From: a virus
DNA: 37,711 nucleotides
Virus record (IMG/VR): IMGVR_UViG_3300030382_004766
Span: 1 to 37,711 of that record
Reading direction: 5' to 3' (one strand)
The notes below the pieces were generated by a model, which had not been told where the DNA came from, made no database searches, and was given only the letters and a program-made list of their open reading frames with translations. Below, in pieces: positions 19,623-35,069 of this stretch (position 1 is the stretch's first letter; each line of letters opens with the position of its first letter). Position numbers and translations under genes: made by a program.

Positions 19623-19868
19623 GTGGAACCGTTTTTGGAGTTCGGGGGAAATGGTGTCATTCTGGCTATGGTGCTTGCGGCTTTCAAAGCTTTGGAAGCT
19701 AGAGCATCTAAGAAAAATGGCTCTGTCTCGGCTCGGATTGAATCCATCGAGAAGAGCTTAGAAGTCCTAACGAATGAATTTAGAAGTTTTCGTCAAGAGG
19801 TAGCGGAGAGACAATTAAAAGAAGATATCATTAAGGAGATTAGTCATGAGCAGCAAACCGGGAGTTAA
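19623..19868 (+). CDS. Small membrane protein with coiled coil, holin-like (81 aa)
   Basis: GTG start shortly after AGGGGG. One N-terminal hydrophobic helix (GNGVILAMVLAAFKAL, residues 9-24) is followed by a basic turn and a charged coiled coil (SARIESIEKSLEVLTNEF). Single-span proteins with a cytoplasmic coiled coil occur in phage lysis cassettes as holins or holin partners. The gene overlaps the next, holin-like gene by 23 bases, which strengthens the lysis assignment. The exact membrane role is not proven. Confidence 0.65.
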   Translation: MEPFLEFGGNGVILAMVLAAFKALEARASKKNGSVSARIESIEKSLEVLTNEFRSFRQEVAERQLKEDIIKEISHEQQTGS

Positions 19869-20091
19869 GACTTCGGAGTGGTGGCTAAGTTTAGCCGCCC
19901 TAATCACATCGGCACTTTTGTCGTCAGGTCTAGTAAGCAACAGCCTCGCGCTCCAGTGCATCGGTGGCGTTGCTACGCTTCTAACCGCTCTGGGGTACCA
20001 AGTATCCCGGTCCTTTGTGAAAACCTCCGAGAAGCGCTCTGAGGCGCTCATGGAGGCATCCAAGATGGGCGCGGGAAAGTCCCAGGACTAG
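19846..20091 (+). CDS. Holin (81 aa)
   Basis: Strong AAGGAG ribosome site seven bases before the ATG. The sequence KTSEWWLSLAALITSALLS begins the first membrane span, and CIGGVATLLTALGYQVSRS gives the second; a charged tail follows. The TSEWWLSLAA start is common in a family of small phage holins, which form the membrane lesion that times lysis. The 3' end carries a perfectly framed slippery heptamer (G GGA AAG, 20073-20079), and the -1 frame stays open for 76 codons beyond it. The 81-residue form may therefore be one of two products. Confidence 0.8.
   Translation: MSSKPGVKTSEWWLSLAALITSALLSSGLVSNSLALQCIGGVATLLTALGYQVSRSFVKTSEKRSEALMEASKMGAGKSQD
20073..20079 (+). promoter_or_regulatory. Slippery heptamer GGGAAAG, candidate -1 frameshift site
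   Basis: The heptamer reads G GGA AAG in the holin frame (codons GCG GGA AAG), the X XXY YYZ pattern. It is the same heptamer used for the gpG-gpGT frameshift of phage lambda (established knowledge). A -1 slip enters the frame GTC CCA GGA, which stays open to TAG at 20304. Without the slip, the holin stops 12 bases later at 20089-20091. I did not find an obvious downstream stimulatory hairpin by eye. Confidence 0.55.
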
Positions 20092-20306
20092 AAGATGCGC
20101 TGCAGGCTGCGTCAACGCTTAAGGCAGGTCATGGGTCTATTTTGGCCGCTTTCAGCATGGACGACATTCGGGCTCGCGGTTCTCTTGGTCTTAGTTCTCG
20201 AATTTCTGACAATCTTCTGGTCGTAGGAGAGGGTTGGGTATCGAAGGATTGGAGGAGCACCCAAATCAACCATGGAGTCATGGCGGGTTTGAAGCTCCAA
20301 TGGTAG
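20079..20306 (+). CDS. -1 frame extension of holin or separate small protein (open frame without usable upstream start)
   Basis: This frame is open from 20043 to TAG 20304-20306 (87 codons plus stop) but has no ATG, GTG or TTG before TTG 20142. ATG 20157 lacks a ribosome site. The conceptual sequence includes GLEDALQAASTLKAGHGSIL, AAFSMDDIRARGSLGLSSRI and GVMAGLKLQW, which reads like a real beta-type phage protein with an aromatic C-terminus. Its stop ends exactly one base before the stop of the opposite-strand endolysin, so the genes meet without overlap. I infer it is read by frameshifting from the holin. A 43-residue hydrophobic frame at 20095-20226 appears to be its shadow. Confidence 0.5.
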   Translation, partial: VPGLEDALQAASTLKAGHGSILAAFSMDDIRARGSLGLSSRISDNLLVVGEGWVSKDWRSTQINHGVMAGLKLQW

Positions 20307-20645
20307 CTAGCTATCCTTCCAATTCCAAAAATGGTCGATCCACCTCGCCCTCCGCCCCTCCCTTGAATCCACGTGTATACGCCCCCTGTACAAACCAATC
20401 CCTTTAAAACCTCCGACTTGGTCTGCTAGAACGTAGAGCTTCAGAATTCTTCGGTTAGATAATGTGCCGGTGGCGTAGGTTATATCTGACGCCACGCAAA
20501 TCCCGTCTTCATTTGGGACGTGCTTTGACCGCTTTGCCCCGCCCACTTCGGCATTGTGCTTTTTGCATCGAATGCCCGATGTGACCTTAAGAGGGCCTGC
20601 GGCATCGCGGAGCTTTTGGAGGAGTTCAATATGTTTAGGGGACAT
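20307..20645 (-). CDS. M15-type peptidase endolysin, core (112 aa from internal ATG)
   Basis: This is a zinc peptidase of the M15 family (D-Ala-D-Ala carboxypeptidase / L-Ala-D-Glu endopeptidase type) that would cleave peptidoglycan stem peptides at lysis. The family's core is visible: VTSGIRCKKHNAEVGGAKRS, then KH and SDIT, and GIGLYRGRIHVDSR near the end. His42, Asp54 and the His of RIHVD are the expected zinc ligands, counted from the ATG at 20645. That ATG lacks the conserved N-terminus, which is encoded just upstream behind an in-frame TGA (see 20646-20717). The gene is the last of the leftward operon and faces the holin tail to tail. Confidence 0.85.
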   Translation of the reverse strand: MSPKHIELLQKLRDAAGPLKVTSGIRCKKHNAEVGGAKRSKHVPNEDGICVASDITYATGTLSNRRILKLYVLADQVGGFKGIGLYRGRIHVDSREGRRARWIDHFWNWKDS

Positions 20646-20827: not shown

Positions 20828-21136
20828 CTACCCTTCTTCTTTTTCAATACTTTTCTGCAGCTCCTGGATTTTAGCCAGAACGGCAATGGTCAATTGGGTG
20901 GATGCCATTTCCGCTATCTCCTCTTCTTTCTGCTTGAGTTCGGTTTGAGCATCATCAAGCATGGCGAACATAGAGCTGATAACGTCAAGCATATTAAGCA
21001 AAGCCCAGGACAGCGCAGTGCAGCCGATTAAAGCCAGCATGGCGTCTGTTATAGGGTTATGGGTAATTCGGATTACACCGAAAACAATAAGCAATGGGCT
21101 AAACCCTAATGCTAAAATAATACCTTTTCTTTTCAT
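20828..21136 (-). CDS. Two-span membrane protein with C-terminal coiled coil (102 aa)
   Basis: I chose ATG 21136 (MKRKGIILALG): it follows GAGAGGAAA and overlaps the upstream stop as ATGA, while the longer frame would add 13 residues inside that gene. Two hydrophobic helices (GIILALGFSPLLIVFGVI and AMLALIGCTALSWALLNML) are followed by a polar coiled coil (TELKQKEEEIAEMASTQL). It sits one gene upstream of the endolysin in the same operon, so a role in lysis, such as an antiholin or second holin, is plausible but unproven. The 110 bases down to the endolysin start hold no clear gene. Confidence 0.65.
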   Translation of the reverse strand: MKRKGIILALGFSPLLIVFGVIRITHNPITDAMLALIGCTALSWALLNMLDVISSMFAMLDDAQTELKQKEEEIAEMASTQLTIAVLAKIQELQKSIEKEEG

Positions 21137-21792
21137 GGCAATTTCCTCTCTTCTGCCTCGTAGCTGATTTCGCAATTATCGTTACACGTGAAACGATTGT
21201 AATAGATTAAGCCATATAAGACCGCTTCGATGGCAATCTCTGCGCCCACCATCTTAGGGGTAATCTTCTTTACCGCTCTTATCTGAACCCCGGTACCAGC
21301 TACCGCTCCGGTATAGATCCCAGCCACTGCTAGGCAACAGTCTTTGCACCCATCCATTGACTCCCTGCCGTTGCAAAATGAGTCACCGTCAGCAGGTCCG
21401 TAAAGTTTGTTGGTAACCTTCGGTGGCTTCGGCGGAGCACACGAAAATGGGACTGCCCCAAATTGGTACACTGCCGAGTCATCCGTGCCTGCCACCAGTG
21501 CCGCAGGGTCAACCCCTATCGGATAGGTGGCTCCTTCATCGCAAACTAGAAGAGCGGTGTTCTCTCCTGGCTCAACGTCAAAGGTGGCGTTGGGTAGCTG
21601 CAACTCTTGCATCCCCATCGCACTAATGTACTTCTCTACTCTATTGGTCTTGACGCACTGAATTGTGCTGTCGCTATTTGCTACACAGATTTGGTCGTAA
21701 CCTCCTCCGGAAGCCAGCCTCGTTGCCGCAGTCCCCACTAAGATTGCCGGAATTAAAAATCCTTTAAATCCTACCCCGTTTTCTTTTTTCAT
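21133..21792 (-). CDS. Secreted or membrane-anchored cysteine-rich protein (219 aa)
   Basis: The start follows GGAGCAACAAA, a leader shared by many leftward genes here. The N-terminus (KKENGVGFKGFLIPAILVG) looks like a signal or anchor. The rest contains about eleven cysteines, including the cluster FCNGRESMDGCKDCC, and a second hydrophobic stretch near the end (AEIAIEAVLYGLIYY) before CNDNCEISYEAEE. Disulphides in the periplasm or outside the cell would suit this composition. The gene lies in the membrane-protein part of the leftward operon near the endolysin. The family is not recognised; a spanin-like or surface-exclusion role is speculation. Confidence 0.6.
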   Translation of the reverse strand: MKKENGVGFKGFLIPAILVGTAATRLASGGGYDQICVANSDSTIQCVKTNRVEKYISAMGMQELQLPNATFDVEPGENTALLVCDEGATYPIGVDPAALVAGTDDSAVYQFGAVPFSCAPPKPPKVTNKLYGPADGDSFCNGRESMDGCKDCCLAVAGIYTGAVAGTGVQIRAVKKITPKMVGAEIAIEAVLYGLIYYNRFTCNDNCEISYEAEERKLP

Positions 21793-34803: not shown

Positions 34804-34873
34804 TTGTTTGTGTCGCAGAATGCTACACAAAGAGCTGCCCGTGTAGCGAATTGAGCCGCGAACACGCGCAAGC

Positions 34874-35042
34874 GTGTAGCGTTTTGAGACGTGTAGCGAA
34901 ACGATGCATGACTCGTTTCGATACGTGTAGCGTTTTGGGACGTGTCCCATTATGGGATTGTCGCAGAATGCGACGTGTAGCAAAATGCGACAAGTCGCAA
35001 TATGCAACATGTCCCATTTTGAGACGTGTCTCATTTTGAGAC
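34874..35042. repeat. Tandem array of 17-bp dyad repeats
   Basis: Ten units follow each other in 169 bases, nine of 17 bases and one of 16. Examples are GTGTAGCGTTTTGAGAC, GTGTCCCATTATGGGAT, TGTCGCAGAATGCGAC, ATGTCCCATTTTGAGAC and GTGTCTCATTTTGAGAC. The general form is GTGTCNCANNNTGNGAC, and the arms vary in matched pairs (TCGCA/TGCGA, TCCCA/TGGGA, TCTCA/TGAGA). Related units lie at 34810, 34841, 33776 and 34181. Period 17 is not a multiple of three, so coding is unlikely. Confidence 0.85.
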
Positions 35043-35069
35043 AAGCATTCATCTGAAAGGCAGATTGGA

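Follow-up and report, generated by a model that had tools for sequence, protein, structure and literature searches.

A putative phage holin gene probably extended by programmed -1 frameshifting, with a small membrane-protein ORF nested in the extension

Organization of the lysis region

The window, by which we mean the whole stretch of DNA analysed, comprises the 37,711 bases of an uncultivated virus record. Its portal and capsid proteins have weak matches to families of SU10-type podophages, and its lysis region lies 3' of a lectin-domain gene that probably encodes a tail protein. Upstream of the holin, a gene on the plus strand (19623-19868) encodes a small membrane/coiled-coil protein of 81 residues with one N-terminal transmembrane (TM) segment followed by a charged, probably coiled-coil part; its start codon is GTG in the window and ATG in one relative (L008), and its sole PHROG match is Rz-like and weak (E 0.31).

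The gene at 19846-20091 on the same strand encodes a putative class II holin of 81 residues. Its product has two hydrophobic segments, with hydropathy peaks of 1.63 and 1.45 at residues 13 and 28, and a net charge of +3, and the gene is preceded by a strong Shine-Dalgarno (SD) sequence (-9.2 kcal/mol). The dN/dS ratio of this gene versus its counterpart in another relative, L010, is 0.08 (Nei-Gojobori). The traits of class II holins are present: small size, two TM segments, a basic C-terminus and an adjacent convergent M15 endolysin. No convincing match was found in Pfam, PHROGs or NCBIfam, the last giving sub-threshold noise only. Since no holin family model matched, the protein is not filed under any named holin family, and the designation as a holin, judged by size, the two hydrophobic segments and position, stays putative. 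A dual start of the lambda S type is absent, as a single start precedes the first TM segment and the next methionine is residue 69. The two hydrophobic segments together with the basic C-terminus lead us to expect an N-in, C-in holin, in which any C-terminal extension would lie on the cytoplasmic side.

The endolysin gene (20307-20645, minus strand) encodes a Peptidase_M15_3 domain (E 6.8e-12), is convergent with the holin gene and belongs to a leftward block of replication-type genes. Being on opposite strands, endolysin and holin need different promoters, and their transcription converges stop to stop. Further along the minus strand, 20828-21139 encodes a protein of 102 residues, with two TM segments and probably a coiled coil, which has a weak PHROG match to Rz-like spanins (E 7.5e-4) and is only 37% identical to its L010 counterpart. 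Elsewhere in the window, 34840-35045 is occupied by a degenerate array of tandem units of about 17 bp (ACGTGTAGCGTTTTGAG / ACGTGTCCCATTATGGG / GTCGCAGAATGCGAC ...), several of which carry a small internal inverted repeat with arms that seem to co-vary; the array looks like iterons or another protein-binding array.

The slippery heptamer and the -1 frame

The 3' end of the holin gene reads GCG GGA AAG TCC CAG GAC TAG, so that GGGAAAG is phased as G GGA AAG. The preliminary description had placed this heptamer, in the correct frame, at 20073-20079; the phase is confirmed, and the heptamer lies nine bases 5' of the holin stop codon. Frameshift sites of the lambda G/GT type are characterized by a heptamer of the form X_XXY_YYZ that precedes the zero-frame stop and is in phase with the zero frame, and G_GGA_AAG is the very heptamer used in the lambda gpGT frameshift. 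Analysis of downstream RNA revealed no significant stimulatory structure (z from -0.37 to +0.70). A GGAGG sequence is found 16 nt 5' of the heptamer, which is more than the usual spacing for a stimulatory SD.

From 20043 onwards, the -1 frame has no stop before the TAG at 20304-20306, as was originally reported. Its first potential start codon is TTG at 20142, with no ATG, GTG or TTG before that position, and its stop abuts the minus-strand stop codon of the endolysin gene at 20307-20309; both points also agree with the earlier account. The length of the extension had been given as 76 residues and is corrected here to 75 residues after a tandem slip (VPGLEDALQ...GLKLQW), corresponding to 75 codons plus TAG at 20079-20306 (plus strand; VPGLEDALQAASTLKAGHGSILAAFSMDDIRARGSLGLSSRISDNLLVVGEGWVSKDWRSTQINHGVMAGLKLQW). 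The predicted fusion has 153 residues, 78 from the holin and 75 from the new frame. Searches with the extension gave no match in Pfam, PHROGs, NCBIfam or PDB sequences, and tblastn with the extension and the fusion against 50,697 phage records gave chance-level matches only. The extension contains no cysteine, and its AlphaFold model (mean pLDDT 40) is uninterpretable except for a weakly suggested C-terminal beta hairpin.

The length of the open -1 frame was considered as evidence by itself and rejected, because long -1 extensions are also found in other genes of the window, where the next gene may occupy that frame. Among 27 genes of the window that were compared, only the holin gene combines an in-frame slippery heptamer inside the -1 window with a long -1 extension.

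Conservation in related phages

A search of 2.9 million viral contigs revealed three relatives that carry the lysis region, all of them metagenomic phage contigs with DNA about 75% to 96% identical to the window. Over the locus, identity is about 96% for L008 and about 75% for L009 and L010; proteins encoded by the neighbouring genes of L010 are mostly 55-80% identical to those of the window. The comparisons below are thus based on four sequences representing two lineages only. Scans of genome collections with alignments of the holin and the extension yielded no relatives, and when the internal virion protein, a resolvase-like protein and the holin served as queries in wider scans of viral sequences, the outcome was relatives without the lysis region or only a distant holin relative, L004. 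In L004, other genes are found downstream of the holin gene, and the 3' part of the latter has no GGGAAAG. This contig also contains an overlapping gene pair (L004:3519-3921), one gene encoding a TM/charged protein and the other a protein with a lipoprotein-like signal, LLLTGCG; it looks like a spanin pair of the Rz/Rz1 type. In L008, the sequence on both sides of the holin is about 96-100% identical to the window and the holin body (window positions 19893-20070) is strongly different, resembling L010 at several sites, which suggests recombination inside the holin gene.

All three relatives keep the holin phase, the heptamer and a 75-codon open -1 frame ending in W and a stop, as well as an ORF nested inside it that is described below. 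The check proposed in the preliminary description, that relatives should keep both GGGAAAG and the open -1 frame, thus comes out positively in three of three relatives (two lineages, the window included). In none of the four sequences is the second frame provided with a clear independent start and ribosome site or organized as a separate gene, and in none has the slippery site been lost with the second frame retained. In L009 and L010, a -1-frame TAA is located about 12 nt upstream of the heptamer and confines the frame change to about 27 nt that hold GGGAAAG. A sequencing error as the source of the frame change was rejected, because four separate contigs agree.

The heptamer belongs to a 22-bp block (20071-20092, GCGGGAAAGTCCCAGGACTAGA) that is kept in L008, L009 and L010 and also contains the holin stop codon and the SD sequence (AGGA) of the nested ORF. 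None of its 22 sites is variable among the four sequences, versus 24% of the holin sites (P about 0.002 against the holin rate; 0.015 with third positions alone). Since the heptamer spans only three synonymous third positions, its own invariance is weak evidence, and conservation of the block may be due in part to the SD and the start of the nested ORF.

Selection and codon usage

Variable sites were assigned to codon positions along the locus. Zero-frame third positions account for 34 of the 54 variable sites in the holin gene and for five of eight in 20142-20223, and -1-frame third positions for six of nine in 20092-20141 and for 14 of 24 in 20224-20306. A likelihood analysis of mutation placement gave ratios for -1-frame constraint of 8.5-10.3 in 20092-20141, a segment that precedes the first start codon and where the test is carried by nine variable sites, and of 7.7-9.2 in 20227-20303, compared with 0 in the holin control; in 20142-20221 the constraint was undetectable (ratio about 0). 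The corresponding zero-frame ratios are 4.5-6.0, 3.2-3.7 and 0 in 20092-20141, 20142-20221 and 20227-20303, respectively, and 33-39 in the holin. The -1-frame tail has a dN/dS of 0.10 versus L010 (Nei-Gojobori), and the double-coding stretch has proportionally fewer variable sites (17/132) than the tail (24/83; P 0.004).

Codon usage points in the same direction. The -1 extension scores 0.138 per codon. Not one of 2,128 out-of-frame segments from the phage's genes attains this value, which is typical of the genes themselves, as 76% of in-frame segments score equal or higher. The part before the first start codon (20079-20141) has a score reached by 1.4-1.6% of out-of-frame segments, and codon usage in 20142-20225 is gene-like in the -1 frame and poor in frame 0. 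The tests of substitution phase, selection and codon usage agree with each other, but are not fully independent. From these patterns we infer that the -1 frame is translated.

A nested transmembrane ORF

The preliminary description overlooked an ORF in the holin frame (20095-20226, plus strand) that lies wholly inside the -1 extension and has to be included in any account of how the locus works. It encodes 43 residues in the window (MRCRLRQRLRQVMGLFWPLSAWTTFGLAVLLVLVLEFLTIFWS) with a basic N-terminus and one strong TM segment, predicted as a helix. The ATG at 20095 is 3 nt past the holin stop and has an AGGA 8 nt upstream, a weak SD (-4.0 kcal/mol). The ORF, including ATG and AGGA, is kept in all four sequences, with 42 residues in L009 and L010, and its dN/dS versus L010 is 0.28 (Nei-Gojobori). 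Its codon score of -0.114 is below that of 99.5% of in-frame segments; such atypical usage would not be surprising if a younger ORF had been overprinted on an older frame. Conserved and with detectable zero-frame constraint, the ORF is likely, though not certain, to be expressed; given its codon usage, the case for expression is weaker than for the extension. Features of an Rz/Rz1 spanin pair were absent from both overlapping products, the extension having no lipobox cysteine and the nested ORF no periplasmic domain.

Interpretation of the overlapping frames

Programmed -1 frameshifting that extends the holin gene is the best explanation of the locus and, in our judgment, probably the correct one. 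Selection and gene-like codon usage in the -1 frame start before any ATG, GTG or TTG, and the only entry shared by the four sequences contains the in-phase heptamer. An entry from within would make the -1 frame a separate short gene, starting at TTG 20142 (54 residues) or at the ATG or GTG at 20157 (49 residues), with GGGAAAG a coincidence. Both start positions are present in all four sequences, and an SD-like stretch (-5.1 to -6.7 kcal/mol) precedes TTG 20142. This stretch is, however, about 12 nt away and thus poorly spaced, and the start at 20157 has no SD (-1.5 kcal/mol). Moreover, an internal start accounts neither for the codon usage and selection that reach upstream of 20142, near the heptamer, nor for the presence of a correctly phased heptamer within the window of about 27 nt. 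The conserved TTG with its badly spaced SD-like sequence leaves some weight to an internal start, which we nevertheless regard as improbable.

If the true second product were instead the nested TM ORF, reached by reinitiation, the -1 frame would be open by chance or as a relic. The ATG and AGGA shared by the four sequences, the location of five of eight variable sites of 20142-20223 at the third positions of this ORF and the zero-frame likelihood ratios before and after 20142 agree with such a product, and it can coexist with frameshifting. As a replacement for frameshifting it is very unlikely, because it accounts neither for the strong purifying selection that acts on the -1 frame beyond the end of the ORF (20227-20303) nor for codon usage that is gene-like in the -1 frame and poor in the ORF itself. 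The alternation of the frame under selection from -1 to 0 in the TM part and back to -1 would also fit readthrough of the TAG or other recoding that joins the holin to the TM ORF, or a shift near 20217-20226 that joins the TM ORF to the -1 tail. We consider such recoding barely credible: inspection of the sequences found no conserved slippery heptamer in the holin phase inside the TM ORF, and the codon usage of 20142-20225 favours the -1 frame over frame 0.

Under programmed frameshifting, a minority of ribosomes would slip by -1 on G_GGA_AAG near the 3' end of the holin gene and continue to the 153-residue extended holin with its 75-residue C-terminal domain. The remaining ribosomes would stop at the TAG at 20089 and could reinitiate at the ATG at 20095, producing the single-TM protein of 42-43 residues. 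The slip signal would then determine how much holin is made relative to extended holin and perhaps to the small TM protein, and the minority extended form might mix with the short form and slow or tune hole formation. We infer the slipping itself, the product ratio and the role of the extension as a modulator of hole formation. Of the two parts of the original proposal, the holin frameshift holds up in all four sequences as the best-supported reading, whereas the internal lysis timer stays speculative. A complete lysis-timing switch, in which one slippery site yields a holin, a frameshift-extended regulator holin and a reinitiated TM miniprotein, three overlapping products within about 460 bases, is offered as a tentative scheme that is more doubtful than probable.

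Comparison with known systems

A review that covers the lambda gpG/gpGT frameshift calls G_GGA_AAG highly prone to shifting in E. coli (PMC5009743). The locus resembles gpG/gpGT and related tail assembly chaperones in having this heptamer close to the 3' end of a short gene, a -1 extension without its own start and two products, here predicted, that share their N-terminus; stimulators apart, its sequence appears to match a lambda-type frameshift cassette in those features that can be tested. It differs in that the gene is a putative holin rather than a tail chaperone, no tape-measure gene follows, and the extension is unrelated and has a TM ORF nested inside. In Kuravirus-like podophages, GGGAAAG extends the major capsid protein (PMC7881722, PMC9965538). 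These phages (phiEco32, YF01, Privateer) likewise are short-tailed and have GGGAAAG shortly before the stop codon of a late gene, and the window encodes an SU10-like portal and capsid; however, its capsid gene has neither a usable heptamer nor a -1 extension.

The MS2 lysis gene is a small membrane-protein ORF that overlaps the coat gene in another frame and is tied to upstream termination. The nested ORF is similar in these respects, but MS2 is an RNA phage and the overlapped gene there encodes the coat protein, whereas here the neighbour is a putative holin and the overlap is with its -1 extension. Lambda S105 and S107 are two holin forms produced from two start codons. In SPP1, two holin forms also arise from two start codons, with no frameshift (PMC6316719). 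S105/S107 and the SPP1 pairs 24.1/24.1* and 26/26* share with the arrangement predicted here the production of two holin forms from one gene, one of them longer and possibly regulatory; the forms differ by their starts in those phages and at the C-terminus, by a predicted frameshift, in the window.

Implications

Programmed -1 frameshifting in phages has been documented for tail chaperones and capsid proteins (PMC5009743, PMC7881722, PMC9965538), and searches of open-licence papers found no -1 frameshift in a holin or other lysis gene. Standard gene callers would annotate the short holin only, missing both the extended holin and the nested ORF. If real, the arrangement would be evidence that a frameshift extension can accommodate overprinted small membrane ORFs, and it would be another route by which a phage obtains two holin forms from one gene and tunes the time of cell burst.
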